Source: Betaproteobacteria bacterium
Lineage (GTDB): Bacteria; Pseudomonadota; Gammaproteobacteria; Burkholderiales; SG8-39
Direction of reading: 5' to 3'
Assembly: GCA_029863065.1 (NCBI GenBank)
Contig: JAOTWE010000004.1
Location: 1 to 35,417, forward strand
Length of the DNA: 35,417 nt
Below are positions 3,653-32,070 of this stretch, one piece after another. The translations under genes and the position numbers were made by a program. The number at the start of each line of letters is the position of its first letter. Position 1 is the first letter of the stretch. The notes below the pieces were generated by a model. It was not told the origin of the DNA. It made no database searches and worked only from the letters and a program-made list of their open reading frames with translations.

Positions 3653-4917
3653 GCCGTCTTGCGTCCGTGCCAGTAGCCCAGCATCAGCGGCTTCACGCTC
3701 AAACCGTGCATCACGATCGACAGCGTCACGACGATGAGCGTCAGGTGGATCAACTCGAGCGCGAGCGGCTCCGGCAAGCCGTGCTCGATGGCGTACATCA
3801 GGTAATAGAGCGAACCGATGCCGCGCACGCCGAACCAGCCGATCATGCCGCGCATCGGCCAGGGCGTGCGCGTGCCCGACAGTCCGGCGAGCACGCTCAG
3901 CGGCCGCGCGACGACGAACACGAACAGCGCCAGGCTCACCGCGCGCCAGCTCCACGAATCCAGAAACAGCGTGCCGCCGATCAGCAGCACGAGCAGGATC
4001 TCGGAGAGCCGCTCCAGGTGCTCCTTGAAGACCAGCGAATCGACGCTCACCTGCGCGATCGGCGGCGCGTCGTCGCCGGCGGTCGGTTCCGGCGCCGGCG
4101 CGCCGGCCAGGCCGAGCTCGGTCTGGCGCAGTGCCACCGCGGCGAAGAACACCGCCAGGAATCCCCAGGTCTGGGCCAGTACCGCGAGGCCGTAGACCGC
4201 GCCGATCATGCCCAGGCCGATCATGTCGTCGTAGCGCTCGCTGTCGGGGTCGGCGCGCCGCAGCCGGGCGGCGAGATGCGCGATCGCCACGCCGCCGGCG
4301 ACGCCGAGGGCGATCCCGCCTGCCGTCGCCCAGAGCACGTCGACCAGCACCCAGCGCAGGCCGAGCGCGCCCAGCTCGTGCAGGCCGAGGAGTCCCAGGC
4401 CCAGCATCACAAAGGGAAACGCGCTACCGTCGTTCATGCCGGCTTCGCAGGTGAGGTTGAAGCGCAGCCGGTCCCGGTCTTCGGCGTGGCGCACCTGCAC
4501 GTCGCCCGCGAGCACCGGATCGGTGGGCGCAAGGATCGCGCCGAGCAGCAGGGCGGCGCCCAGCGGCAGCTCGAGCAGGTAATAGCCGAAGGCGGCGACC
4601 AGGATGACCGTGATCGCGATCGACACGAACGCGAGCAGCACCGGCGAGCGCCAGCGCGCCCAGGTCACCGGCGCCGGCAGCTTCACGCCCGCGGCGAACA
4701 AGGAGACCAGCACCGCCGCTTCGGTCAGCACCTCGAGCACCGCCGACTCCTTGAGCGGGTTGAAGTGGAACAGGCCGAGCACCGTCGGGCCGACGATCAT
4801 GCCCACGGCCAGATAGACGATCGCCATCGTCAGCGGCAGGCGCCGCATGAACGGCGACAGCAGGCCCATGGCGAGCATCAGCCCGCCGACGACCAGGAAG
4901 CCGATGGCGCTGATCAT
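3649..4917 (-). CDS. CPA1-family cation/proton antiporter (NhaP-like)
   Basis: A 422-residue membrane protein with about 12-13 helices. Signatures of the CPA1 family are visible: 'ILAPTDPVLAGDVQV' (T132-D133-P134) and 'TCEAGMNDGSAFPF' (E158, N162-D163), the latter being the ion-binding N-D pair of NhaP/NHE-type electroneutral exchangers. It would exchange Na+ or K+ for H+ across the inner membrane, for pH or salt balance. The ATG overlaps the kup stop by one base (TGATG), and its own stop overlaps the MFS start. Neighbouring a K+ uptake system suggests K+/H+ homeostasis as a shared task. Cation choice (Na+ versus K+) cannot be read from the sequence. Confidence 0.92.
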   Translation of the reverse strand: MISAIGFLVVGGLMLAMGLLSPFMRRLPLTMAIVYLAVGMIVGPTVLGLFHFNPLKESAVLEVLTEAAVLVSLFAAGVKLPAPVTWARWRSPVLLAFVSIAITVILVAAFGYYLLELPLGAALLLGAILAPTDPVLAGDVQVRHAEDRDRLRFNLTCEAGMNDGSAFPFVMLGLGLLGLHELGALGLRWVLVDVLWATAGGIALGVAGGVAIAHLAARLRRADPDSERYDDMIGLGMIGAVYGLAVLAQTWGFLAVFFAAVALRQTELGLAGAPAPEPTAGDDAPPIAQVSVDSLVFKEHLERLSEILLVLLIGGTLFLDSWSWRAVSLALFVFVVARPLSVLAGLSGTRTPWPMRGMIGWFGVRGIGSLYYLMYAIEHGLPEPLALELIHLTLIVVTLSIVMHGLSVKPLMLGYWHGRKTA

Positions 4918-6788
4918 CAGAGCTGCACCTTGGTGCCGAGCTCGATCACCCGATTGACGGGCAGGTTGAAGTAGTCCGCGGCGCTGCCGGCGTTGCGCGA
5001 CAGGGCGGTGAACAGGCGCTCACTCCAGCGCGCAACCAGCGGCCCGCGCTCCGCCGGCACCAGCGTCTGGCGGCTGAGGAAGAACGAAGTGGTCATCATG
5101 TCGAATTCCAGGAGGCGGCGGCTGGTGGTGGTCAGATCGTGGGCGACGTCCGGGTTCTGCATGAATCCGTAGCGCAGCGTCATCTTCCAGAAGCCCTGTT
5201 CCAGGAGCTCGAGCTCGATGCGCTGCTCGGCGCTCACCATCGGCTCGTCGCCAACCTCGATCGTGAGGAAGACCACGCGCTCATGCAATACCTTGTTGTG
5301 GTTCAGGTTGTGCAGCAGTGCCGGCGGCGTCGAGTCCGGATTGGTGGTCAGGAACACCGCCGTGCCCGGAACGCGCACCGGCGGCTCGCGCATCAGCGAT
5401 TCGAGCAGCCGCTTGAGCGGCACCGTGGACAGGCGCACGCGCGCCAGCAGCCGCCCGCGCCGCCAGGTGAGCATCAGGCTGCAGGCGATGACGCCGAGCA
5501 CGAGCGGCAGCCAGCCGCCGTCGGGCACCTTGAGCAGCGCCGAGGAGAACAGCGTCGCCTCGATCGCCAGGAAGAAGCCGCTCGCGGCTGCGCACAGCCA
5601 CAGCGGATAGCCCCAGCCAAAGCGGATGACGAAGAAGGTGAGGATCGTCGTCGCCATCATGGTCCCCATGACCGCCACGCCGTAGGCCGAGGCCAGCCGC
5701 TCGGAGGAGCCAAAGCCGACCACCGCGCCCAGCACCGCGGCAAACAGGATCCAGTTCACCGCCGGCACGTAGATCTGCCCGGCGGTGCTGGCCGAGGTGT
5801 GCAGGATCTTCATGCGCGGCAGGAAACCGAGCTGGATCGCCTGCTGCGTCACCGAGAAGGCACCGGAAATTGTCGCCTGCGAGGCGATCACCGTCGCCGC
5901 GGTGGCGAGCGCCACCATGGGGTACAGCGCCCAGGGCGGAAACGCGAGGTAAAAGGGGCTGGTGATCGCCGTAGCGTCCCGCATCAGCAGCGCCCCCTGG
6001 CCGAAATAGTTGAGCACCAGCGCCGGCGCCACCATCCCGAACCAGGCGATGCGCACCGCCTTCTTGCCGAAGTGGCCCATGTCCGCGTACAGCGCCTCGG
6101 CGCCGGTGATGGCGAGCAGCACCGAGCCGAGCACCACGAACGAGCTGGCGCCGTAGCCGGTGACGAAGCCGAGCGCGTGCACCGGGTTGAGCGCGCCGAG
6201 CACCGCAGGGTTCTGCGCGATGTTCCAGATGCCCGACGCGCCGAGCGTTGCGAACCACAGCGCGCACACCGGGCCGAAGAGCGCACCGACCGCCCCGGTG
6301 CCGTGCCGCTGCATGAGGAACAGCGCCGCCAGCACGCCGGCGGCGAGCGGCACCAGGTCGCGCTCGGCGCCGGCCGCGCCGAGCGACAGCCCTTCGACCG
6401 CCGAGAGCACCGAGATCGCCGGCGTCAGCACTGCCTCGCCGAAAAACAGCGACGCGCCGATCACGCCCGCCAGCATCACCGGCGCGCGCCAGCGCGCGTG
6501 CCCGCGCAAGGCGCGCGAGGCGAGCGCGAGCAGCGCCATGATGCCGCCCTCGCCCTTGTTGTCGGCGCGCATCACCAGCGTCACGTATTTCAGCGACACG
6601 ACGATCATCAGGATCCAGAAGATCGTCGACAGGCCGCCGAGCACGGCAGCGTCGGTGAGCGGGATGCCGTGCCCCGGGGCGAAGGTTTCGCGCACGGCAT
6701 ACAGCGGGCTGGTGCCGATGTCGCCGTAGACGACGCCGAGCGCGAGGAGCGTCAGCGCTGCGGTCGAAGCGGAGCGGGCTTGCGGCAA
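4917..6788 (-). CDS. kup: Kup low-affinity potassium transporter
   Basis: A 623-residue K+/H+ symporter of the KUP/HAK/KT family, the same length as E. coli Kup. The N-terminal signature 'GVVYGDIGTSPLYA' begins near residue 18, followed by 'MRADNKGEGGIMALLALA' and 'LFFGEAVLTPAISVLSA'; after 12 helices there is a cytoplasmic domain of about 170 residues. The start is a TTG at 6786-6788, because an in-frame TAG, the stop of the upstream regulator gene, lies just four codons before it. No clear Shine-Dalgarno is present, so translation is probably coupled to the regulator. Second gene of the operon, followed by the antiporter with a TGATG junction. Confidence 0.96.
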   Translation of the reverse strand: MPQARSASTAALTLLALGVVYGDIGTSPLYAVRETFAPGHGIPLTDAAVLGGLSTIFWILMIVVSLKYVTLVMRADNKGEGGIMALLALASRALRGHARWRAPVMLAGVIGASLFFGEAVLTPAISVLSAVEGLSLGAAGAERDLVPLAAGVLAALFLMQRHGTGAVGALFGPVCALWFATLGASGIWNIAQNPAVLGALNPVHALGFVTGYGASSFVVLGSVLLAITGAEALYADMGHFGKKAVRIAWFGMVAPALVLNYFGQGALLMRDATAITSPFYLAFPPWALYPMVALATAATVIASQATISGAFSVTQQAIQLGFLPRMKILHTSASTAGQIYVPAVNWILFAAVLGAVVGFGSSERLASAYGVAVMGTMMATTILTFFVIRFGWGYPLWLCAAASGFFLAIEATLFSSALLKVPDGGWLPLVLGVIACSLMLTWRRGRLLARVRLSTVPLKRLLESLMREPPVRVPGTAVFLTTNPDSTPPALLHNLNHNKVLHERVVFLTIEVGDEPMVSAEQRIELELLEQGFWKMTLRYGFMQNPDVAHDLTTTSRRLLEFDMMTTSFFLSRQTLVPAERGPLVARWSERLFTALSRNAGSAADYFNLPVNRVIELGTKVQL

Positions 6789-6797
6789 GCGAGGTCG

Positions 6798-8063
6798 CTA
6801 GCGCTTGGCCCGAAGCCTGGCCCTGGCCGCCGCCACCGCGGCGGCCGCCTTGGCGGCGACGTCCGGCTTGGCCGGTGCCGCTCTGGCCGGCGCCGCCTTG
6901 GGCGGCGCCTCCGCGGCCGCGGCCGCCGGCGCGTTGCGCGTCGGGCTGAAGTCCAGATTGATCAGGTCGCCGAGCGCGTCGGAATAAGCGTCGCGCACCT
7001 TGCGCATCATCGGCAGCGCCTTGGCGAAGGCCTCGGCAAGCGAGGGATCGAACTGCGTGCCGAAGCCGTCCTTGATCAGCTTCGCCGCCTCGTCGATAGT
7101 TAATGGCTTCTGGCGGTAGAACTGCGTGGTGGTCATGGACTCGAAGGCGTCGACCAGCGCCATGGCGCGGCCCGGCCAGGGAATGTCGTTGCCCTTGAGC
7201 TTCTTGGGGTAGCCGGTGCCGTCCCAGCGCTCGTGGTGCGTGAGCGCGAGCTTGGCGGCGAGCGCCAGCACCGGGTCTTGGTGCTCGCCGATGATCTCGG
7301 CGCCGAGCTGTGGGTGGCGCCGTACGCGTTCGAGCTCGGGCGCCGAGAGCTTTCCAGGCTTGCGCAGAACTTCAGCGGGCACGCCCATCTTGCCGATGTC
7401 GTAGAGCGGCGAGGCTTTCTGCAGCAGCTCGGCGACCTCGGGCTTCATGCCGGCGGCCTGGGCGATGAGCCTGGCGTACTGGCTGATGCGCGCCACGCGG
7501 TTGCCGGCGGCGGCGCTCTCGTGGAATTCCATGGCGCGCGCCAGGCGCCGGATGAGCTGCGAGCGCGCGTCCTCGAGCTGCGCGGTGCGCTGCTGCACTT
7601 CGCGCTCGAGCGCCGCCTGGCGGCCGGCGAGCGCGAGGTGGATGCGCACCCGCGCCAGCAGCAGCTTGGCATTGATCGGCTTGGTGAGATAGTCCACCGC
7701 GCCGGCGTCGAGCCCTTCGAGCTGCTCGGCGGGCTCGACGCGGCCGGTGAGGAAGATCACCGGGATGTGCGCCGTGGCCGGGTCCTCCTTGAGCAGCAGG
7801 CAGATTTCGAAGCCGGTGGCGCCCGGCATCTCGACGTCGAGCAGGATCAGGTCGGGCTGCGGCGCCGCCGCGGCGAGCGTCAGCGCCTCGCCGCCGTCGG
7901 TGGCAAGCTTCACCTCGTAATTGCCGGCAAGCGCTTTGCCGATCAGGGCAAGAAGGTCTTCCGCGTCGTCTACCGCGAGGATGACCGGCCGGGCGTCGTT
8001 CTGGCTCACCGCAGCTAGTCTACCTTCTGCTCCGCGGCCGCGCTTGACGCGAAACACGTTCAT
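6798..8063 (-). CDS. Response regulator with degenerate HD-GYP output domain
   Basis: A 421-residue protein. The receiver domain (about 27-145) keeps the acidic pair 'VDD' (32-33), phospho-acceptor D76 in 'LILLDVEMPG', T106 and K128. A coiled linker leads to an HD-GYP-type domain (about 170-335) that retains H-H-E (276-278), 'WDGTGYP' (280-286) and D305. However, the histidine of the HD pair is Y221 ('LYDIGK') and the usual histidine of the TG-x-H segment is R189. The tail from 360 is a low-complexity A/P/K run. Loss of two metal-ligand positions suggests that c-di-GMP hydrolysis is weak or absent. The ATG at 8063 lies inside the oppositely directed cold-shock promoter; GTG at 8009 (product starting VSQNDARP) is a reasonable alternative start. 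First gene of the operon. Confidence 0.9.
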   Translation of the reverse strand: MNVFRVKRGRGAEGRLAAVSQNDARPVILAVDDAEDLLALIGKALAGNYEVKLATDGGEALTLAAAAPQPDLILLDVEMPGATGFEICLLLKEDPATAHIPVIFLTGRVEPAEQLEGLDAGAVDYLTKPINAKLLLARVRIHLALAGRQAALEREVQQRTAQLEDARSQLIRRLARAMEFHESAAAGNRVARISQYARLIAQAAGMKPEVAELLQKASPLYDIGKMGVPAEVLRKPGKLSAPELERVRRHPQLGAEIIGEHQDPVLALAAKLALTHHERWDGTGYPKKLKGNDIPWPGRAMALVDAFESMTTTQFYRQKPLTIDEAAKLIKDGFGTQFDPSLAEAFAKALPMMRKVRDAYSDALGDLINLDFSPTRNAPAAAAAEAPPKAAPARAAPAKPDVAAKAAAAVAAARARLRAKR

Positions 8064-8462: not shown

Positions 8463-9443
8463 TCAGGCCAGGCCTTTGGCCCGCGCCTTGTGGGCGGCGA
8501 GCGCCGCCAGGGCTTCGAGCGCCGGCGCCGCCACGCCGGCGGCGCGCGCGAACCAGAGCGGCGCCATGAGGATGGCGTCGATCTCCATCGGCCGGCCGCG
8601 CTCGTAGTCCTGCAGCATCGACGTCTTGTGCTGCGGGCCGCCGGACTGGTGCGGCGGCGGCAGCGGTGCACCCTCGGTGTCGACGCCGTGCGCCTGCGCC
8701 ACCCTTTTGGCCTCGTCGTGCACGCGCCGCCGCAGCTCGGCGAGTGCCGGGTCGGCCATCGCCTCCTTCACCGACTCGCCGGTCACGACGCCGATCGCCG
8801 AGCTGCCGACGTTGATGAGGAGCTTCGCCCAGACGGAGCGGCGGATATCGGTTTCGACCGGCGCCTGGATTTCGGCCTGCTCGAGCGCCGCGCGCAATGC
8901 GGCAACACGGCCGGAGGCTTTGCCGTCGGGCTCGCCCAGCACCAGCACGTTGCGCTGCGGTGCGTTGTTGCGCACCACCCCAGGCTCGACCACTTCGTTG
9001 GCCGAGTAGATCACCCCGCCGATCACCCTGTGGGGCGCCACCGCACGCGCCAGCGCCCCGCCCGGGTCGAGCCGCTGCAGCTCGGCCGGTGGTGGCGGCC
9101 GGCCAGCGAGCCCCTGCGCGTACCACCAGGGAATGCCGTTCTGCGCGAAAACCACGCCCGTGTCGGGTCCGAGCAGCGGACCGATGCCGGCCGCGAGCGC
9201 GCCGAGGCCGGTGGCTTTCAGCGCCACGAGCACGCAGTCCACGCGGCCGAGGTCCGCCGCGTGCTCCGCCGCGTGCACCCGCGCCACGATGCGCCGCTCG
9301 CCCTTGAGCAGGGTGAGGCCGTTGCGGCGCATCGCCACGAGGTGCGCGCCGCGCGCGACGACCGACACGTCGTGCCCCGCGGCCGCCAGTTGCGCAGCAA
9401 AATGACCGCCCACCGCGCCGGCGCCGAATACGCAGATTTTCAC
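8463..9443 (-). CDS. panE: 2-dehydropantoate 2-reductase family protein
   Basis: A 326-residue NADPH-dependent ketopantoate reductase (ApbA/PanE family), which makes pantoate for coenzyme A synthesis. The N-terminal Rossmann motif 'FGAGAVGGHFA' is present, then 'VVARGAHL' after strand 2. The catalytic region has 'VWAKLLINVGSSAIGVVTGES' (proton-donating lysine) and 'HKTSMLQDYERGRPMEID' (substrate-binding K/S and catalytic D/E), all at family spacing. Several paralogues of this family exist in many betaproteobacteria and act on other 2-oxoacids, so pantoate synthesis is likely but not proven. It is divergent from the cupin gene, with only 25 nt between the two starts, so promoters must overlap. 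Confidence 0.87.
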   Translation of the reverse strand: MKICVFGAGAVGGHFAAQLAAAGHDVSVVARGAHLVAMRRNGLTLLKGERRIVARVHAAEHAADLGRVDCVLVALKATGLGALAAGIGPLLGPDTGVVFAQNGIPWWYAQGLAGRPPPPAELQRLDPGGALARAVAPHRVIGGVIYSANEVVEPGVVRNNAPQRNVLVLGEPDGKASGRVAALRAALEQAEIQAPVETDIRRSVWAKLLINVGSSAIGVVTGESVKEAMADPALAELRRRVHDEAKRVAQAHGVDTEGAPLPPPHQSGGPQHKTSMLQDYERGRPMEIDAILMAPLWFARAAGVAAPALEALAALAAHKARAKGLA

Positions 9444-11699: not shown

Positions 11700-11859
11700 C
11701 ATGTCCTCCGAAGAAGTGAAGCAGTTCTGGCGCGGCTACTGCGAACGCCGGAAGGTGGCGAAGGACGTCGTCGCGAAGGGCGAGGCGGAGATCGACAAGG
11801 ATCCTGAGTTCTGGGCCGACCAGACGATGGACCAGCTACTGGCGCTGGTCACGCGCTGA
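11695..11859 (+). CDS. Small conserved-looking protein, 54 residues
   Basis: An ORF from ATG 11695 (a second ATG lies at 11701) to TGA 11857-11859. The product begins MNMSSEEVKQFWRGYCERRK and continues with 'GEAEIDKDPEFWADQTMDQLL'; it is a mixed-charge, helix-forming cytoplasmic-type sequence with aromatic residues spaced like a real small protein. Upstream only a weak AGGA is visible. Its last 24 nt overlap the 3' end of the FecR-domain gene on the opposite strand. Not recognised as a named family. Confidence 0.6.
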   Translation: MNMSSEEVKQFWRGYCERRKVAKDVVAKGEAEIDKDPEFWADQTMDQLLALVTR

Positions 11860-12684
11860 GCGGCGGCGCTCGCGGCGCTCCTGGGCCTGCGGGCGCGGCG
11901 GCCGCTCGGCCTTGCGCAGCTCGCGGCGCGGCGCATCCTTCAGCGAGCGGTTGGGTTGCAGCTGCCGCCCGCCCCGCTCGCGCCTCAGAAATTCCCTTCG
12001 CGCCTGGCGGCGCTCGACGATCGTCTTGCGCGCGCCGCGCGCGCGTTCCACGAAGCGCCGTTCGAACCGTCCCGGCCTGAAGAAGGCCGGCACCGACGCG
12101 AGCAGCCGCGGCCGCGCGCCGCGCGCCCGCGCACGGAACACCGCGCGGTTCGCGGGCACTTCGACCACTCCATCCGGGCCCTGCATGAAAGCGCGGCCCT
12201 CGTTCACCTTGTCGTAGCTCCCCGGCTCGCCGCGCGGATCGCCATCGAGGAGGTGCGAGGGCTCGTGGTCGGTGCCGCGAACGCCGATGGTGACGAGCGG
12301 CGTGCGTATCTTGTAGTTCGAGCGGTTGTACTGTCCGATCCAGCCGGTGATCGACCGCAGCGCCCCCTTGGCGAGCTCGATCAGGCTGCGGTCGCCCTCG
12401 CCGCCGTCGGCGACGTACTCGGCGATCGTGATCTTGGAATTCTCGCGCACGATGAGGGAAGCCCCGTCGGCCATCTGCAGGTGGATTTCGCCGTTCGGGA
12501 AGGTCGTGACCGTGTCGCCCTCGAACACGTTTTCGCTGTTGACCGGCAGGCGGGTCTTGCGGTCCTTGCCTTCGAGCAGGACGTCGCCGTCGGTGAGCTC
12601 GATGGTGCCGGCGATGCGCGGGGCGATGTCCTGGGCCTGTGCGCTGGTGGCAAGCAAGGCTCCCACTAGCAGCGCGCGAATCAT
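11836..12684 (-). CDS. Secreted FecR-domain protein with a basic tail
   Basis: A 282-residue protein. The ATG at 12684 gives a clear signal peptide ('MIRALLVGALLATSAQA'), with AAGGGG upstream; the extra upstream codons to 12708 are not needed. Residues about 30-170 form a FecR-type beta domain ('VNSENVFEGDTVTTFPNGEIHLQMADG', 'RTPLVTIGVRGTDHE'), a fold seen in periplasmic FecR proteins and in stand-alone exported proteins of unknown role. The last ~95 residues are extraordinarily rich in arginine ('RRFVERARGARKTIVERRQ' and following), with no recognised fold. There is no adjacent FecI sigma factor or TonB receptor, so iron-sensing is unlikely. Divergent from selO. Confidence 0.82.
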   Translation of the reverse strand: MIRALLVGALLATSAQAQDIAPRIAGTIELTDGDVLLEGKDRKTRLPVNSENVFEGDTVTTFPNGEIHLQMADGASLIVRENSKITIAEYVADGGEGDRSLIELAKGALRSITGWIGQYNRSNYKIRTPLVTIGVRGTDHEPSHLLDGDPRGEPGSYDKVNEGRAFMQGPDGVVEVPANRAVFRARARGARPRLLASVPAFFRPGRFERRFVERARGARKTIVERRQARREFLRRERGGRQLQPNRSLKDAPRRELRKAERPPRPQAQERRERRRSARDQRQ

Positions 12685-12754
12685 GGCGTCACACCCCTTT
12701 CCTCGCAATGGTCGTTCGGAATGGTAGCAGCAGGAACTGCGCTAGCATCGGCGC

Positions 12755-14360: not shown

Positions 14361-16541
14361 TCAGCGCGGGGCCTTCCCCCGCGCGCCCTGAAGCGCCTGC
14401 GCCCGGGCGCCGAAAGCTTGTGCGTCGCGCTCGAGGCGCATCTCGAAGCGGCGTTCGCCGCGGTCGGCCATGACGGGCCCGGTGGCCGATGCGGCAACCG
14501 GCGCCGGCTCGGGCGCCCGGCTGCCCAGCGGACCGATCTGGTTGCCGACTGCAAATGCCGCCGCCAGGGCAAATCCGATCACAAGCCACGGCCGTGGGCG
14601 CCGCGGCCCGTGCCTGAGCCTTGCCGCGGCAGTCTCGGCGTCGAGCGCATGACGTTCTTCCCCCAACTGCTCGGCGCGCACCGTGTCGGCCTGCGCCTCG
14701 GCGACGCGCGCCTCGACCCGGCGCTCGGCCTCGTGCCGGGCGCGGCTGCGCTCGAGCGCGTGCGCTTCCGCCTTGGCGCTCGCCCGCGCCTGCCGCGCGG
14801 CGCGTTCCTCCGCGCGCAGGCGCTCGCGCGCCGCGCGCTCGAGCTCGCCGTCGAGCTGCCGCCGTTGCAGCGCTTCGGCTTCGCGCCGCGCGTCCGCGGC
14901 AATATGCTCCTCGGCGGCCGCCGCCAGGGCACGCTCCGAGGCCATGCGCTCAGCGGCGCTGCGTTTGGCGCTCGCCTCCTCGCCGGCACGGGCGCTTGAC
15001 TCCTGCGCTGCGCGCTGCTCGCGCTCGGCGCGCTCCGCGGCCGTCGCAGCCGCCGCGCGCTCGGTCTTGGCGCGCGCCGCGGCCTGCTCGCGGGCGCCCG
15101 CCTCCGCCTTGTGGCGGGCCCGCGCGGCCTGCGCCGCCTGCCGCTCGACTTCGGCACGCGTGCGCAGAGCACGCTCGAGCTCGGTGTCCATCTGCCGGCG
15201 CGCCTCGGCCTCGTCGCGCAGCGCCGCCTCGGTCTGCGCCTGCGCCGCGGCTTGCGCCGTCGCCGCCTGCTCCGCCGCGAGCCGCTCCCCGGCGGCGCGC
15301 CGCGCCGCCTGCTCGGCCGCGTGCTTCGCACTTACTGCGATTAGTGCCTCGGTCTGCGCCGCCTCCCGGTCGCGCGCCGCCTGTGCCAGCTCGGCATCGG
15401 CCGCCTCGTGCTCGAGCGTGCGCTGCGCCGCTGCGGCCTCGGCTGCGGCGCGCGCCTGCGCCGCGCCCGTCGCTTCGCGCTCGGCAACCGCACGCAGCTG
15501 CGCAGCTTCCGCGGCTTGCGCCCCGGCCTGCGCGCGCTCGCGCGCCTTCGCTTCGGCCGCCCGGTCCAGGCGCTGCCGCTCCTCGGCGAGTGCCGCCGCC
15601 GTGGCTTCGGTCTGCTCGCGCTCGCGCGCCTGCGCCAGGGCGCGCTCTTCGACCTCGTGGCGCTCCTCGGCGAGCCGTGCAGCCTCCTGCTCGGCCTGCG
15701 CGCGCGCCTGCGCGCGGTGCGTGGCCTGCGCATCCTTGGCTTCGCGCTCGCGCGTGGCGGCAAGGGCGCGCTTTTCCGCCGCCGCGCGCTCCTGCGCCAC
15801 GACGCGCGCCGCCTCGCTCGCCTCGGCGCGCGCCGCCGCGGCCAGCGCCGCTTCGTTCTCGCGCCGCGCGCGTTCCTCGGCGAGCTGGGCCGCCTTGCGC
15901 TCGGCTTCGGCGTTACGCCGCGCCTGTTCCTCCGCCGCCGATTCGATCGCCTTGCGCTCCTCGGCCAGGCGCGTCGCCTCGGCTTCCGCAGCGCTGCGCG
16001 ACTCGATCTCGCGCTTGAGCTTTTTCTCCGCCGCGTCGCGCTCGCGCGCGGAATCGTGCGCCCGGCGCTCGGCGTCGGCGCGCGCCGCGACCCCGCGCCG
16101 GGTCTGCTCCTCCGCGGACAGCCGCTCGCGCATGAGCGCCGCGGCCTTGGCTTCGGCCTCGGCGCGCTCGCGCGCATGCTGCGCGGCGGCATCCTCCTGG
16201 CGCCTTCGCGCCTCGGCCAGCTCGGTCGCGCGCCGCTCCGCCTGCTCGCGCGCGCGCGCCTCGGACAAGGCATGCGCCTCGGCGCGCTCGCGGTCGGCGA
16301 TCAGCCGCGCTGCCTTGGTCTCGGCCTCGGCCCGGGAGTGCGCGATGCGCCGCAGCTCCGCCTCGGCGGTCTGGCGCTCGCGCGCCAGGTCAAGGCCGCG
16401 TTTTTCCTCGATGATCCTGGCCTGCTGGGTCTGCTCGGCGCCGCGCTCGCCCTCGATGCGCTCGCGCAACTCCCCGGTCTGCTGTTGCAACTTGGCCGCG
16501 CCGCGCTCGGCCTGTTTGAGCTTGTCGATGATGCGGCTCAT
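14361..16541 (-). CDS. Giant coiled-coil membrane protein built of 28-residue repeats
   Basis: A 726-residue protein of A, E, R, Q and K. Residues about 1-640 are one uninterrupted predicted helix; residues 651-670 (PWLVIGFALAAAFAVGNQIG) are a single membrane segment preceded by a very basic 'RHGPRRPR'; a 56-residue tail follows. By positive-inside logic the coiled coil is cytoplasmic and the tail periplasmic. From residue 52 to about 640 there is a degenerate 28-residue unit (LAEER-like start) repeated about 21 times, with one 14-residue half unit. Family not recognised; it resembles filament-like or tether proteins only in composition. It begins 21 nt after korB stops, so it is probably in the kor operon. 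A 2-kb antisense open frame here is a composition artefact. Confidence 0.8.
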   Translation of the reverse strand: MSRIIDKLKQAERGAAKLQQQTGELRERIEGERGAEQTQQARIIEEKRGLDLARERQTAEAELRRIAHSRAEAETKAARLIADRERAEAHALSEARAREQAERRATELAEARRRQEDAAAQHARERAEAEAKAAALMRERLSAEEQTRRGVAARADAERRAHDSARERDAAEKKLKREIESRSAAEAEATRLAEERKAIESAAEEQARRNAEAERKAAQLAEERARRENEAALAAAARAEASEAARVVAQERAAAEKRALAATREREAKDAQATHRAQARAQAEQEAARLAEERHEVEERALAQAREREQTEATAAALAEERQRLDRAAEAKARERAQAGAQAAEAAQLRAVAEREATGAAQARAAAEAAAAQRTLEHEAADAELAQAARDREAAQTEALIAVSAKHAAEQAARRAAGERLAAEQAATAQAAAQAQTEAALRDEAEARRQMDTELERALRTRAEVERQAAQAARARHKAEAGAREQAAARAKTERAAAATAAERAEREQRAAQESSARAGEEASAKRSAAERMASERALAAAAEEHIAADARREAEALQRRQLDGELERAARERLRAEERAARQARASAKAEAHALERSRARHEAERRVEARVAEAQADTVRAEQLGEERHALDAETAAARLRHGPRRPRPWLVIGFALAAAFAVGNQIGPLGSRAPEPAPVAASATGPVMADRGERRFEMRLERDAQAFGARAQALQGARGKAPR

Positions 16542-16562: not shown

Positions 16563-17618
16563 TCAGCGCAAGCCGGCGTTGATCTTGTCAAGCAAGGCCG
16601 AACCCGGGCACAGCTCCTTCTCCCCGAGCCGGTTGAACGGCGCCTCAAAAGTATTGAGGTGCTGGTGCAGGTCCTCCGCGTCCGGCGCCAGGTACAGCAG
16701 GCCGGTGAGGACCTCCCCCTTCGCCGCCGCCTGCGCGATGTGGGTAATCGCGTTGATCTTGTCCGACGGGTCGTACTCCGCGTCGAGCTTGCGCAGCTTG
16801 ATGATCGAGCCGTCGTGCTGCGGCACCTCGATGACGCCGCCCTCGGAGTAATCCACCGTGATCGCGTCGCGGCTGGGCCAGAAATCCAGGCGGTTCACCG
16901 CCTCGTTGTGCTCGCGCACGTAGTCGTAGCTCTTGGTCGAGCCCGGGTGGTTGTTGAAGGCGACGCAGGGCGAGATCACGTCGATGAACGCCGCCCCCTG
17001 ATGCCAGATCGCCGCCTCGACGAGCGGCGTGAGCTGCTGCTTGTCGCCGGAAAAGCTTCGCGCCACGAACGTCGCGCCCATCAGCAGCGCGAGCGACACG
17101 GTATCCACCGCTGCATCGGCATTCACCATGCCCTTTTTCGCCTTCGAGCCCTTGTCCGCGGTCGCCGAGAACTGGCCCTTGGTCAGGCCGTACACGCCGT
17201 TGTTCTCCAGGATGTAGGTCATGTTGACGCCGCGCCGCATGACGTGCGCGAACTGCCCCAGGCCGATGGACGCCGAATCGCCGTCGCCGGATACGCCCAG
17301 ATAAATCAAATCACGGTTCGCCAGGTTCGCCCCGGTCAGCACCGACGGCATGCGCCCGTGCACGGTGTTGAACCCGTGGGAATTCCCCAAAAAATAATCC
17401 GGCGTCTTCGAAGAACAACCAATTCCGGACAGCTTCGCCACACGGTGCGGCTGGATGTCGAGCTGGAAGAAGGCCTGGATCAGCGCGGCGGAAATCGAGT
17501 CGTGGCCGCAGCCCGCGCACAGCGTGGACACCTTCCCCTCGTAATCCCGCCGGGTAAACCCCAGCTTGTTCTTCGCCAGCATCGGGTGGTGCAGCTTGGG
17601 CTTCAGTACGTAGGTCAC
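16563..17618 (-). CDS. korB: 2-oxoacid:acceptor oxidoreductase, beta subunit (thiamine diphosphate-binding)
   Basis: A 351-residue subunit that binds thiamine diphosphate and a [4Fe-4S] cluster. 'STLCAGCGHDS' (C34, C37), C68 in 'GIGCSSK' and C218 in 'ISPCVAF' fit the four cluster ligands of Kor-type beta subunits. The TPP motif is 'GDGDSASIG' (111-119) followed by 'ENNGVYGLTKGQF' (139-150). It decarboxylates a 2-oxoacid such as 2-oxoglutarate to the acyl-CoA with electron transfer to a low-potential acceptor. The GTG start at 17618 overlaps the korA stop by 4 nt (GTGA). The substrate is inferred from closeness to KorB; other 2-oxoacids remain possible. Confidence 0.9.
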   Translation of the reverse strand: MTYVLKPKLHHPMLAKNKLGFTRRDYEGKVSTLCAGCGHDSISAALIQAFFQLDIQPHRVAKLSGIGCSSKTPDYFLGNSHGFNTVHGRMPSVLTGANLANRDLIYLGVSGDGDSASIGLGQFAHVMRRGVNMTYILENNGVYGLTKGQFSATADKGSKAKKGMVNADAAVDTVSLALLMGATFVARSFSGDKQQLTPLVEAAIWHQGAAFIDVISPCVAFNNHPGSTKSYDYVREHNEAVNRLDFWPSRDAITVDYSEGGVIEVPQHDGSIIKLRKLDAEYDPSDKINAITHIAQAAAKGEVLTGLLYLAPDAEDLHQHLNTFEAPFNRLGEKELCPGSALLDKINAGLR

Positions 17619-19465
17619 GCGGCCTTGTCCTTCTTGATCGGCCGCACGTTCAGGGCCGACACGATCTCGGAAATCTCCCTGGCGATGAAGCGCGCCGTGA
17701 TCGGCGTGCCGTCGTAGTGCAGCACCGAAATCAGGCAGGCCGGGTTGACGCCCGCCTCGTTGACCAGCAGCGTCTTCAGCTGCGCATCGCGGTTCTGCTC
17801 CACCACGAACACCTTGGCATGCGACTGGCAGAAGTCGTAGATCTCGTCCTGGAACGGGAAGGCGCGCACGCGCAGCGCGTTGACGAAGATGCCTTTGTCC
17901 GCCAGTGCCTCCAGCGCCTCGTGCATCGACGGCGAGGTCGAGCCATAGTAGATGCAGCCGAAGCGCGCCGGCTCGCGCGCCGGCGTCAGCAGCGGCTTGG
18001 GCAAGAGCGTCTTGGCGAAGTCGTGCTTCTTCAGCAGGCGCTCCATGTTGTAGGCGTAATCGGCGCCCGCCTCGGAGTACACCGCGTAGGGGTTCTTGCT
18101 CGTGCCGCGCGTGAAGTAGGCGCCCTTCGATTCGTGCGTTCCCGGATAGGTGCGGTACGGGATGCCGTCGCCGTCGACGTCGAGGTAGCGCCCGAATTCC
18201 TTGCCGCCATCCAGCATCTCGGCGGTCATGACCTTGCCGCGGTCGTAGACGCGGGCGTCGTCCCACTGCAGGGGCTTGCACAGCCGCTGGTTCATGCCGA
18301 TATCCAGATCCGTCATCAGGAACACCGGTGTCTGCAGCCGCTCGGCGAGATCGAGCGACAGCGCCCCGAAATTGAAGCACTCGTGCGGATCCTCGGGAAA
18401 GAGGAGCACGTGCTTGGTGTCGCCGTGCGAGAGGTAGGCGCACTTCAGGACGTCCGACTGCTGCGTGCGTGTCGGCATGCCGGTGGAAGGCCCGCCGCGC
18501 TGGACGTCGATGATCACCGCCGGAATCTCGGCGAAGTACGCGAGGCCCACGAACTCGCTCATCAGCGATATCCCGGGGCCGGAGGTCGCGGTGAAGGCGC
18601 GCGCCCCGTTCCAGCCCGCGCCGCAGACGATGCCGATCGAGGCGAGCTCGTCTTCGGCCTGGATGATGGCGAACTTGTTCTTGCCGGAGTCCGGGTCGAC
18701 GCGCAGCTTCTGGCAGTAGCGGGTGAACGCCTCCGCCAGGGAAGACGAGGGCGTGATCGGGTACCAGGCGCACACCGTCGCCCCGCCGTAGACGCAGCCG
18801 AGCGCGGCCGCGGCGTTGCCTTCCATGAAGATCCGGTCGCCGACCGCGTAGGCGCGCTTCACCTTCAGGCCGAGCATGCCCTTCAGCTTCTCGCCGGCGT
18901 AGTTGAAGCCCATCTGGAAGGCATTGAGATTGGGCTTGAGGAGCTTTTCCTTGCCCTTGTATTGCTCGCCGATCAGCTCGGCGATCACTCCGGGCTCGAT
19001 GTCCATGAGCGCCGAGAGCGCGCCGACGTAGATGATGTTCTTGAACAGCTGCCGCTCGCGCGCGTCGGTGAAGGTGGCGTTGCTGATCTCGGTGAGCGGC
19101 ATGCCGATGACGTTGACGTCGTCGCGGAATTTCGAGGGCGGCAGCGGCTTGGTGTTGTCGTAGAACAGGTACCCGCCGGGCTCGATCTCCTTCACGTCCT
19201 GGCTCCAGGTCTGCGGGTTCATCGCCACCATCAGGTCGACCCCGCCGCGCCGCCCGAGCCAGCCCTTCTCCGTGACGCGCACCTCGTACCAGGTCGGCAG
19301 GCCCTGGATGTTGGAGGGGAAGATGTTCCTCGGGCTGACCGGGATGCCCATGCGCAGGAACGATTTGGCGAACAGCTCGTTGGCGGAGGCCGAGCCCGAG
19401 CCGTTGACGTTGGCGAACTTGACGACGAAGTCGTTCAGCGACTCGATGCGCTTCATGGACATCAT
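17615..19465 (-). CDS. korA: 2-oxoacid:acceptor oxidoreductase, fused gamma-alpha subunit
   Basis: A 616-residue fusion. The N-terminal ~190 residues are the gamma (CoA-site) domain: 'ANVNGSGSASANELFAKSF', 'QGLPTWYEVRVTEKGWLGR', 'VDLMVAMNPQTWSQD'. The rest is the alpha domain that pairs with the TPP subunit: 'WYPITPSSSLAEAF', 'EDELASIGIVCGAGWNGAR', 'TATSGPGISLMSEFVGLAY', 'RGGPSTGMPTRTQQSD'. This is the KorA-type layout of 2-oxoglutarate:ferredoxin oxidoreductase. The tandem ATG at 19465 overlaps the stop of the upstream gene (ATGA), fixing the start despite a much longer open frame beyond it. Acts with korB and the flavin-ferredoxin protein. Confidence 0.92.
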   Translation of the reverse strand: MMSMKRIESLNDFVVKFANVNGSGSASANELFAKSFLRMGIPVSPRNIFPSNIQGLPTWYEVRVTEKGWLGRRGGVDLMVAMNPQTWSQDVKEIEPGGYLFYDNTKPLPPSKFRDDVNVIGMPLTEISNATFTDARERQLFKNIIYVGALSALMDIEPGVIAELIGEQYKGKEKLLKPNLNAFQMGFNYAGEKLKGMLGLKVKRAYAVGDRIFMEGNAAAALGCVYGGATVCAWYPITPSSSLAEAFTRYCQKLRVDPDSGKNKFAIIQAEDELASIGIVCGAGWNGARAFTATSGPGISLMSEFVGLAYFAEIPAVIIDVQRGGPSTGMPTRTQQSDVLKCAYLSHGDTKHVLLFPEDPHECFNFGALSLDLAERLQTPVFLMTDLDIGMNQRLCKPLQWDDARVYDRGKVMTAEMLDGGKEFGRYLDVDGDGIPYRTYPGTHESKGAYFTRGTSKNPYAVYSEAGADYAYNMERLLKKHDFAKTLLPKPLLTPAREPARFGCIYYGSTSPSMHEALEALADKGIFVNALRVRAFPFQDEIYDFCQSHAKVFVVEQNRDAQLKTLLVNEAGVNPACLISVLHYDGTPITARFIAREISEIVSALNVRPIKKDKAA

Positions 19466-21285
19466 GCCGCCTTCCTCTCGCGGCTGCGGCAGCCGGGCCC
19501 GGCGTCGGTCATTTCCAGCAGGAACTTCTGCATGTCCCAGGCCCCGGTCGGGCAGCGCTCGGCGCACAGGCCGCAGTGCAGGCACACGTCCTCGTCCTTC
19601 ACCATCACGCGCCCGGTCTTCAGGCCGTCCTGCAGGTACAGGTCCTGCGTCAGGTTCTTCGCCGGCGCGTTGAGGCGCGCGCGCAGCTCGCTTTCCTCGC
19701 CGTTGGCGACGAACGAGATGCAGTCCATCGGGCAGATGTCGACGCAGGCGTCGCACTCGATGCACAGCTTCGAGGCGAACACCGTCTGTACATCGCAGTT
19801 GAGGCAGCGCTGCGCCTCTTTCCAGGCGGTCGCAACGTCGAAGCCGAGCTCCACCTCGGCCTTCACGTTCTTCAGCGTCAACTTGATGTCGCGCCAGGGC
19901 ACCTTGTAGCGCGCGTCGCCGGCGATCTCGTTGTCGTAGCTCCACTCGTGGATGCCCATTTTCTGCGACAACAGGTTCACGCTCGGCGCCGGGCGCTCGC
20001 GCAGGTCCTCTGCATTGAGCAGTTTGTCGATGGAGATGGCGGCGTCGTGGCCGTGCGCCACTGCCCAGATGATGTTCTTCGGCCCGAAGGCGGCGTCGCC
20101 GCCGAAGAAGACGTTTCTTGCGCTCGACTGCAAGGTGGCCTTGTCGAGCACCGGCAGGCCCCACTGGTCGAACTCGATGCCGGCATCCTTCTCGATCCAG
20201 GGAAAGGCGTTCTCCTGCCCCACCGCCACCAGCACGTCGTCGCACTCGAACGTCTGCTCCGGCTCGCCCGTCGGCACCAGGCTGCGTTTGCCCTTGTCGT
20301 CGTACACCGCCTTCACCTTCTCGAAGCTCATGCCGGTGAGCTTGCCGTTCGCGTGCAGGAACGCCTTGGGCACGAGGAAGTTGAGGATCGGAATGCCCTC
20401 GTGCTGCGCGTCCTCCTTCTCCCAGGGCGAGGCCTTCATTTCCTCGAAGCCCGAGCGCACGATCACCTTGACGTCGCCGCCGCCGATGCGCTTCGAAGTG
20501 CGGCAGCAGTCCATGGCGGTGTTGCCGCCGCCGAGGACGATGACGCGCTTGCCGATCTTCGTGGTGTGGCCGAAGGACACCGAAGAGAGCCAATCGATGC
20601 CGATGTGGATGTTGTTCGCCGCTGCCTTGCGCCCCGGGATCTCGAGGTCGCGCCCGCGCGGCGCGCCCGAGCCGATAAAGATCGCGTCGTAGCCCTGGGC
20701 AATGAGCTTCTTCATGGAGTCGATCTTCACGCCGCCCCGGAACTCGACGCCGAGATCGAGGATGTAGCCCACCTCCTCGTCGATCACCTCCTCGGGCAGG
20801 CGAAAGCGCGGAATCTGCGACCAGATCATGCCGCCGGCGCGCGGGTCCTGGTCGAACACGGTCACCTGATAGCCGAGCGGCGCCAGGTCGCGCGCGACCG
20901 TGAGCGAGGCGGGGCCGGCGCCCACGCAGGCAATCTTCCTGCCGTTTTTTTTCGCCGCCGGCTTCGGCATGCGGCCTTTCATGTCATCGCCTTTGAAATC
21001 GGCGGCGACGCGCTTCAGCCGGCAGATGGCGACGGGTTCGGGCTTGGCCTGGTTATCCTCCTCGACGCGGCCGCGCCGGCAGGCGGGCTCGCAGGGGCGG
21101 TCGCAGGTGCGGCCGAGGATCCCCGGGAAGACGTTCGATTTCCAGTTGACCATGTAGGCATCGGCGTACCGGCCTGCGGCGATCAAGCGGATGTATTCGG
21201 GAACCGGGGTGTGGGCGGGACACGCCCACTGGCAATCGACGACTTTATGGAAATAGTCGGGATTCTTGATATCGGTGACCCGCAA
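19462..21285 (-). CDS. NAD(P)-linked flavin oxidoreductase fused to a 2[4Fe-4S] ferredoxin domain
   Basis: A 607-residue GltD-like protein that would shuttle electrons between Kor and NAD(P). The N-terminal part has 'CQWACPAHTPVPEYI' and 'CDRPCEPACRRG' cysteines as in glutamate synthase small subunits. The FAD site is 'ACVGAGPASLTVARDLA', and the NAD(P) site 'VIVLGGGNTAMDCCRTSKRIG' lies further on. The C-terminal ~120 residues hold two ferredoxin motifs, 'CIECDACVDICPMDC' and 'CLHCGLCAERCPTGA'. The start is TTG at 21285, selected because AAGGAG (21294-21299) lies 8 nt upstream; codons upstream to 21399 are non-homologous. First gene of the kor operon. A related arrangement occurs in phenylglyoxylate:acceptor oxidoreductases, so 2-oxoglutarate is not the only possible substrate. 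Confidence 0.9.
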   Translation of the reverse strand: MRVTDIKNPDYFHKVVDCQWACPAHTPVPEYIRLIAAGRYADAYMVNWKSNVFPGILGRTCDRPCEPACRRGRVEEDNQAKPEPVAICRLKRVAADFKGDDMKGRMPKPAAKKNGRKIACVGAGPASLTVARDLAPLGYQVTVFDQDPRAGGMIWSQIPRFRLPEEVIDEEVGYILDLGVEFRGGVKIDSMKKLIAQGYDAIFIGSGAPRGRDLEIPGRKAAANNIHIGIDWLSSVSFGHTTKIGKRVIVLGGGNTAMDCCRTSKRIGGGDVKVIVRSGFEEMKASPWEKEDAQHEGIPILNFLVPKAFLHANGKLTGMSFEKVKAVYDDKGKRSLVPTGEPEQTFECDDVLVAVGQENAFPWIEKDAGIEFDQWGLPVLDKATLQSSARNVFFGGDAAFGPKNIIWAVAHGHDAAISIDKLLNAEDLRERPAPSVNLLSQKMGIHEWSYDNEIAGDARYKVPWRDIKLTLKNVKAEVELGFDVATAWKEAQRCLNCDVQTVFASKLCIECDACVDICPMDCISFVANGEESELRARLNAPAKNLTQDLYLQDGLKTGRVMVKDEDVCLHCGLCAERCPTGAWDMQKFLLEMTDAGPGCRSRERKAA

Positions 21286-21293
21286 CTGCTCGT

Positions 21294-21299
21294 CTCCTT
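21294..21299 (-). promoter_or_regulatory. Ribosome binding site deciding the TTG start at 21285
   Basis: AAGGAG on the minus strand, 8 nt from TTG 21285. No ATG or GTG in the frame has a comparable site, and the family homology starts within a few residues of this codon. Confidence 0.8.
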
Positions 21300-21410
21300 G
21301 ACGGCGCCGATCTGTTGCCCGCGCGCGACGGCTGCCGTAAAACGAAAGTCTACTACCGGATAAAGCACGGGGAAAGGCTTTGTTTTCAAAAACCTGCAAC
21401 GGTTATCAGA

Positions 21411-31326: not shown

Positions 31327-31401
31327 GTGCATACGCGGGTAGATCGCGGCTCCGAATCAAAGTTTGGGGCTAAAGATAGCTAAATGGCCGGGAGAACTTC
31401 G

Positions 31402-32070
31402 ATGAACAACCCTTCTAATCCTTTCCGTGCTTCCGCATTGGCGATGCTGGTGGGAGGCATGCTTGTTTGCGGTTACGCAAGCGCGGCACTCATCACCTTT
31501 GACACGGTCGTCACAGGCTCAACCAGCTTCGGCTTCGATGGCGATGGCGATGGAACCAACGACGTTATCTTCACTACCACCGATCCCAGCGGATTTAATA
31601 CTTTTGGTCCGGGAACCAATATGACGTTCATCCATGAACCCGGGCTCGAAGGGACGTCGCTGCTGAACCCCGACCTGCGGGTGGATTTCCTCCGCCGCGC
31701 CACCGGATCGCTCACGTTCGGTTTCGCGCTGGACTCGTTTGTGTCGGACCCGGCGTATTTCGCCAGTATCAGGGTGTTTGATGCCAGCGCAACTGAGATT
31801 GCGAATGCAGCGCAGCAAGGAGAATTCACCATTACCGTTCCGCCTTCCGGCCTCAGTTCGTACCCGGAGGGCCAGATTTCCTTGGCTTTCGCCGGTGAGG
31901 CCGCGTATGCGACCTTCGATTTCACCTCGACATTTGGCCGCTACATCATTGACGACTTGGAGGGCACCTTCGGCAGCACGGAGCGGCCGCCGCTTCCCGA
32001 ACCCGCCACGCTCGCGCTTCTCGGCCTCGGCCTCGCTGGACTCGGATTCAGCAGACGCAAGAAAGCGTAA
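31402..32070 (+). CDS. PEP-CTERM sorting-domain exported protein
   Basis: A 222-residue protein with a signal peptide ('ALAMLVGGMLVCGYASAA') and a textbook C-terminal PEP-CTERM tripartite tail: 'LPEPATLALLGLGLAGLGFS' then 'RRKKA'. Such proteins are exported, cut near the P-E-P by an exosortase (XrtA/EpsH) and linked to exopolysaccharide. The body is a D/G/T/S-rich beta domain ('FGFDGDGDGTNDVIFTTTDP' could bind Ca2+) of no named family. ATG 31402 is chosen over 31384 because GGGAGA precedes it and it begins the signal peptide. No exosortase is in the window. Driven by the sigma-54-type promoter and two upstream boxes. Confidence 0.92.
   Translation: MNNPSNPFRASALAMLVGGMLVCGYASAALITFDTVVTGSTSFGFDGDGDGTNDVIFTTTDPSGFNTFGPGTNMTFIHEPGLEGTSLLNPDLRVDFLRRATGSLTFGFALDSFVSDPAYFASIRVFDASATEIANAAQQGEFTITVPPSGLSSYPEGQISLAFAGEAAYATFDFTSTFGRYIIDDLEGTFGSTERPPLPEPATLALLGLGLAGLGFSRRKKA

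Follow-up and report, generated by a model that had tools for sequence, protein, structure and literature searches.

A 14-residue-repeat helical rod with a probable C-terminal membrane anchor, a putative tether for a CheY-HD-GYP module in Betaproteobacteria

The 726-residue protein described here consists for most of its length of a helical repeat of exactly 14 residues, whose R(i)-E(i+4) pattern is unusually regular, ends in a probable transmembrane segment and short tail, and has relatives whose genes directly follow, or are fused to, genes for CheY-HD-GYP response regulators. Judged from sequence, we lean toward regarding it as a membrane-anchored helical tether or scaffold for the HD-GYP module. 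Its gene lies in a stretch of 35,417 nucleotides of betaproteobacterial DNA, referred to below as the window, and comprises the following features:

14361..16541, minus strand: gene of the 726-aa repeat protein (open reading frame)
16494..16541, minus strand: N-terminal motif MSRIIDKLKQAERGAA, proposed docking site (family pattern MS(R/K)(L/I)xDxLKxAExxR)
14625..16388, minus strand: 42 tandem 14-residue units of an Ala/Arg/Glu-rich helix, residues 52-639 (autocorrelation and predicted helix)
14532..14588, minus strand: probable transmembrane segment, residues 652-670 (hydropathy; N-terminal side positive)
14364..14531, minus strand: C-terminal tail, predicted periplasmic (alignment of 20 tails, by eye)
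about 14403-14447, minus strand: conserved tail motif FEMRLERDAQAFGAR (alignment of 20 tails, by eye)

The open reading frame, which an earlier note on this DNA had already delimited, was confirmed at 726 aa, of which 227 are Ala, 122 Arg, and 118 Glu. Comparison with an 82% identical relative (L001, the metagenome-assembled genome 'Betaproteobacteria bacterium isolate S06.Bin099') gave a dN of 0.10 and a dS of 0.52 over 398 codons (dN/dS about 0.19), with 37, 40, and 120 substitutions at codon positions 1, 2, and 3, respectively, indicating that the reading frame is real and under purifying selection. Searches of Pfam, NCBIfam, PHROGs, and PDB sequences returned no match to the protein, and within these libraries the earlier statement that the layout belongs to no named family therefore stands. 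An NCBIfam match to ClfA (E 0.095), obtained with one homologue only, was taken as a chance match, and among the matches listed in literature searches (HD-GYP with coiled-coil or scaffold; 14-residue repeats) no title names the repeat family. At the DNA level, Tandem Repeats Finder detected no array spanning the gene, only short ones, the longest having an 84-base unit in 2.2 copies with 74% matches; recent tandem duplication of DNA was accordingly rejected.

Alignment searches gave matches in 41 of 98 genomes of the same family (E ≤1e-6) and in 21 of 300 genomes of the order (E 1e-10), the window's own genome being included in both counts; proteins with other heads are among the matches, and a transmembrane segment is missing from some of the order-wide ones. 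Among the 46 loci examined, from 40 genomes, the start motif is present in 27 (one of them degenerate, G095) and absent from 14 that have other heads or are truncated or frame-broken, while the repeat filter found no repeat open reading frame in 5. The motif loci with both ends, including the window's, constitute the 20 complete members, which range from 390 to 1151 aa; those left out (L001, L052, L060, L064, L075, L077, L079) are truncated, except for L060, where only a short second copy was caught. In the N-terminal motif, L8, A11, and acidic residue 12 are each found in 20 of the 20 complete members, and K9, R15, and D6 each in 19; because a loose regular expression covering residues 1-6 served to choose the members, M1-D6 are partly selected, and only the later motif positions are independent. 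This motif may represent a docking site. In G076 (L060:7252-11037), the kor genes precede two repeat genes: the first encodes a long protein with the motif, a transmembrane segment, and tail, and the second a copy of 246 aa that has the same N-terminal motif but no clear transmembrane segment.

The identity autocorrelation of residues 41-640, compared with 2000 composition-matched shuffles, showed peaks at lags 14, 28, 42, 56, 70, 84, 98, and 112 (z 7.8-11.2), the next-best lag up to 120 having a z of 3.2. The unit is thus 14 residues long, and not 28 as had first been described. Its phase is continuous over 42 units from residue 52 to residue 639—that is, one unbroken array—and the "half step" formerly placed at residue 290 amounts to a single unit. 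The pattern may start about two units before residue 52, to judge by eye from R28/E32 and R42/E46. Position 5 is R or K in 36 of the 42 units, so that the recurrent arginine noted at this position is retained, albeit in a unit of 14; position 9 is E or D in 38 units, position 12 is A or L in 38, and position 2 is charged in none. A wider set of 670 units was chosen for R5/E9/A2/A12 and is biased at those columns. The same periodicity was seen in every one of the 20 complete members, that of the window among them, with 14, 28, 42, and 56 being the best four lags between 1 and 60. Over residues 52-639, odd units are indistinguishable from even ones (p 0.32), although the two differ within residues 52-289 alone, the first 17 units (p 0.02); over the 20 complete members, again including the window's, parity gave a mean z of -0.27 with two members below p 0.05, and no consistent 28-residue super-period is present.

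A charge periodicity of 28 or 28/3 residues, as in the four-heptad charge bands of myosin rods, had been expected from the earlier description. However, the power of net charge at 28 (p 0.64) and at 28/3 (p 0.10) did not exceed that of 2000 shuffles, whereas it did so at 14 (p 0.003), and the values at 7, 14/3, and 2.8 were each reached by none of the 2000 shuffles. Positive charge alone gave p 0.0495 at 28/3, an uncorrected value that counts against dismissing this period. With a unit of 14 residues and no net-charge peak at 28 or 28/3, the myosin analogy fails on its own test, and the protein differs from myosin-rod-like 28-residue proteins in both unit and charge periodicity. On autocorrelation, charge spectrum, and parity, a 28-residue repeat with charge bands and a half step was rejected.

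AlphaFold2, given an input alignment of two rows, predicted helix over residues 2-516 and 521-643 (mean pLDDT 74.3, pTM 0.23), with pLDDT below 50 over residues 644-692; together with the 14-residue periodicity, this bears out the very long periodic helical rod proposed before. R-to-E pairs at i+4 were counted 52 times against 23.7 expected (z 7.6), and E-to-R pairs at i+4 34 times against 23.8 (z 2.6), with like-charge pairs being depleted and oppositely charged pairs at i+3 showing no excess. Such an excess of opposite i,i+4 pairs is the mark of single alpha-helices of the ER/K type, and this charge pattern is the only one of the tested family definitions that the protein matches. With 3.5 residues to the turn, one conserved face of the helix is made up of positions 1/8, 5/12, and 2/9, and its center alternates between R and A/L, unlike the leucine core of a classical coiled coil. 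The pattern of the rod is compatible with a single extended helix as well as with a loose Ala-coil.

These properties bear on whether the rods might instead form a filament or other oligomer, packing into a membrane-tethered cytoskeletal network in which the enzyme neighbors would be incidental passengers. The long predicted helix and the variable length of the members would suit such a network, and other bacteria are known from one survey to have coiled-coil rod proteins that assemble into filaments (PMC2680258); but net charge is without a band at 28 or 28/3, the alternation of R and A/L at the center of the conserved face leaves no hydrophobic a/d core, and opposite charges are paired within one helix, making a filament quite improbable. 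Crescentin and FilP, which are intermediate-filament-like, have a long coiled-coil-like rod in common with the repeat protein, but their repeat and gene context are unlike. Furthermore, the definition of intermediate-filament-like rod proteins in the same survey excludes transmembrane segments and other known domains (PMC2680258), and the repeat protein has a predicted transmembrane segment at residues 652-670, with a hydropathy of 1.61.

This C-terminal segment, starting at residue 652, is the most hydrophobic 19-residue stretch of the whole chain. Within the last 130 residues, the highest hydropathy over 19 residues ranges from 1.24 to 2.61 across the 20 members; the segment of the window protein is thus only moderately hydrophobic, and AlphaFold2 does not model it, giving no confident helix at residues 652-670. 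The C-terminal membrane anchor of the earlier description accordingly remains a likely one, on the strength of the hydrophobic segment. The N-terminal flank of the segment is the more positive one in 19 of 20 members, from which the rod is predicted to be cytoplasmic and the tail periplasmic. The tails vary between 27 and 61 residues and, in the alignment of 20 inspected by eye, carry near their end a motif of the form hydrophobic-x-hydrophobic-(K/R)-(L/M/I)-(D/E). Complete members have in common this motif around LKLD, as in LKLDYRLQ or LQLDADAAGFAAR, and it can be made out by eye whether members are fused, split, or otherwise built.

With respect to gene context, the recurrent partner of the repeat gene is a gene for a CheY-HD-GYP c-di-GMP phosphodiesterase, found directly upstream in 11 of the 46 loci (G006, G018, G080, G084, G087, G089, G094, G095, G096, G097, and G098). 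In G087 and G096 the contig ends and the repeat filter found nothing, so that the repeat gene there rests on alignment-search matches. The two genes overlap by four bases, start to stop, in G006 and G018. In five of the 11 coupled loci (G006, G018, G094, G097, and G098) a gene for the potassium transporter Kup comes after the repeat gene, in the order HD-GYP, repeat gene, (amidohydrolase in three), Kup. In the other 35 loci an HD-GYP gene is not found directly upstream, which in some is due to a contig end or another head; next to the motif-bearing gene of G016, G049, G050, G051, G052, G056, and G059 there is an ApbA-type gene instead. Conversely, G090 and G100 have kept the HD enzyme and lack the repeat gene.

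In six further genomes, which surfaced in the order-wide search and the HD-GYP search, the enzyme and the repeat are encoded in one gene; two of these fusions are complete, one is cut by a contig end, and three are interrupted by a stop or frameshift. The complete fusion of G225 (1332 aa) comprises a receiver (Pfam Response_reg, 11-123), an HD-GYP domain (HD_5, 168-324), the repeat array, a transmembrane segment, and the tail TTPLKLRLDGEWQ. The fusion of G262 contains the same Response_reg and HD_5 domains and is the one that runs off its contig, and that of G353 (L119) is interrupted by one in-frame TAG not far beyond its HD-GYP part, which may reflect an error, a pseudogene, or another cause. 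The remaining three are from the window's own family: G051 has one complete frame of 742 codons with a transmembrane segment and the tail APIELRLD, and in G076 and G107 a stop or frameshift disrupts the fused frame. All three show a weaker repeat periodicity (0.046-0.061 above median). In a midpoint-rooted tree of the HD-GYP domains, the fused forms, the adjacent forms, and the window's own HD-GYP gene fall into one group of 22 rows (group figures 91/95, not starred by the tool). Fusion and adjacency are no proof of physical interaction; nevertheless, the fusions are better fitted by a membrane-anchored tether than by a filament.

On the reading that we prefer, the repeat protein would be a single-pass inner-membrane tether or scaffold with its N-terminus inside: a cytoplasmic rod of 14-residue units would lead from the N-terminal docking motif to a transmembrane anchor near the C-terminus, beyond which a short tail would reach into the periplasm. 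In the split versions, the enzyme encoded immediately upstream would dock to the N-terminus, whereas in the fused versions CheY-HD-GYP would take the place of the N-terminal motif. The rod would then anchor the enzyme to the membrane, either directly at a site set by the tail or no more than tens of nanometers from it, and c-di-GMP would thereby be removed locally. One open question is how the many c-di-GMP enzymes of a single bacterial cell are kept apart, and an enzyme that occurs both beside a putative tether gene and as a fused chain would allow a direct test of physical tethering.

Alternatively, the protein could be a spacer of mechanical length, whether single helix or loose Ala-coil, whose ends bridge cytoplasmic and periplasmic partners unrelated to c-di-GMP in the manner of TolA. 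Both ends are conserved while the length varies, the tail is predicted to be periplasmic, and 14-residue-repeat proteins are also found with other heads, all as a spacer would have it; yet the six HD-GYP fusions and the 11 adjacent pairs would be left unexplained, and we regard this alternative as rather unlikely. TolA consists of a long Ala-rich charged helix, located in the periplasm, with an N-terminal anchor. What the two share is a long charged helix rich in Ala, placed between a membrane anchor and an interaction element at one end; unlike in TolA, the anchor of the repeat protein is C-terminal, where the chain is most hydrophobic, its helix is predicted to be cytoplasmic, and no Pfam or NCBIfam family is matched.

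Returning to the tether for an HD-GYP module, the neighboring enzyme, like the head of the fusions in G225 and G262, shares two Pfam domains with RpfG-type CheY-HD-GYP c-di-GMP phosphodiesterases, Response_reg and HD_5, neither of which is present in the window's repeat protein (0 Pfam families). RpfG-type enzymes are not known to carry a rod of 500-1000 residues, a transmembrane segment, or a tail. In its presumed mode of working, the repeat protein comes closest to AglZ and FrzS of Myxococcus xanthus, whose receiver and long coiled coil can be likened to the receiver-rod coupling of the repeat family (PMC2680258, PMC1974792). This likeness is one of description, the accessible parts of these sources mentioning no HD-GYP domain or membrane anchor for either protein, and an N-terminal receiver of this type is absent from the window protein and present in its fused relatives (Pfam).

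In the window, the genes corresponding to the HD-GYP partner and its neighbors are the following:

6798..8063, minus strand: CheY-HD-GYP response regulator (Pfam Response_reg and HD_5; sequence; tree)
4917..6788, minus strand: Kup potassium transporter (Pfam K_trans)
8463-9443, minus strand: ApbA-type gene

The HD-GYP protein is 66% identical to that of G018, but has YDIGK in place of HDIGK, the catalytic, metal-binding histidine of the HD motif being lost, with HHERWDGTGYP intact. Its gene and that of Kup are 9 bases apart and the repeat gene is found 6.3 kb away, behind kor, as if the repeat gene had moved. PA2572, a YN-GYP variant of Pseudomonas aeruginosa, does not hydrolyze c-di-GMP (PMC3774798), suggesting by analogy that the window's enzyme is likely inactive. 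In the same tree group, the unlinked enzymes of G000, G003, and G020 have YDIGK for HDxGK, and those of G090 and G100, likewise unlinked, keep HD. The HD pair is intact in 17 of 17 linked enzymes versus 4 of 14 unlinked ones (Fisher 2e-5), but the tree shows few independent events, so that a loss of the histidine tracking loss of the neighboring tether gene is only suggestive and was not accepted. For this count, G102 (A for H; contig ending 63 bases on) and G075 (no motif found) were dropped from the 33 enzymes examined, and the 10 of 40 places in the HD-GYP search that have no locus, among them G076 C59 (YDIGK) and G076 C12 (motif not matched), were not counted. Given the distance and the YDIGK sequence, the HD-GYP link may not operate in the window; the client of the repeat protein may have changed there, and the rod may either keep its tether role with an inactive regulator or serve another client.

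Upstream of the repeat gene, the window contains a set of kor-like genes:

16563..17588, minus strand: korB-like 2-oxoacid:acceptor oxidoreductase beta subunit (Pfam TPP_enzyme_C)
17615..19450, minus strand: korA-like 2-oxoacid:acceptor oxidoreductase alpha subunit (NCBIfam TIGR03710, 564.7 bits, above the cut-off of 482.75)
19462-21399: NAD(P)/Fe-S protein, upstream of the korA-like gene

The korB-like gene, which scores 201.4 bits against NCBIfam PorB_KorB and so remains below the cut-off of 261.9, ends 21 bases before the repeat gene. It is thus conceivable that the repeat protein is a kor accessory in this lineage, anchoring a soluble kor complex to the membrane, the more so as the repeat gene also follows kor in G001, of the window's genus, and in G076, of another genus. 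However, these three are the only ones of the 46 loci in which the two adjoin within the fetched stretches, and the repeat gene is absent from all four of the other kor loci that have 4 kb or more of downstream sequence (G003, G006, G017, and G020). As G003, G017, and G020 have no match to the repeat gene anywhere in the genome, only G006, which has it elsewhere, shows kor and the repeat gene both present and apart. In this comparison, the contig of G018 ends after 295 bases, and G002 and G089 have no korB match. An accessory function in this lineage is therefore highly improbable, the case for it as a general role is weak, and kor, from which homologues had been expected to be traced, does not hold as a general context.

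Several other neighbors were observed. An ApbA-type gene recurs near the repeat gene both in coupled loci (G006, G084, G095, and G097) and in uncoupled ones (the seven named above and G060). A gene with a FecR domain (11836-12708) is next but one to the repeat gene in the window, and in G021 (L083:3298-6059) a CHASE2-adenylate cyclase and a short secreted protein, FecR-like by eye with 0 Pfam families, are encoded upstream of the repeat gene. The window also encodes a PEP-CTERM sorting-domain protein (31384-32070, plus strand; TIGR02595, 26.1 bits, cut-off 16).

More broadly, the tether described above could belong to an unnamed modular family of tethers up to about 90 nm long when fully extended, in which exchangeable cytoplasmic heads—the docking motif, the CheY-HD-GYP enzyme, or others—would be combined with a constant rod, transmembrane segment, and periplasmic motif, positioning c-di-GMP breakdown and being linked to an envelope partner; this extension is possible but doubtful. 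In another family of the order (f15, g36), 14-residue-repeat proteins are encoded just downstream of fliR (L014, L125, L087, L089, L091, L092, L098, and L099), and those inspected have neither the window-type start motif nor a clear transmembrane segment. FliR was identified near the repeat locus in six of seven genomes of this family, with no match in G275 (L103), and both FliM and FliR were identified in the neighborhood of L014; these repeat cousins hint at a flagellar or polar site.
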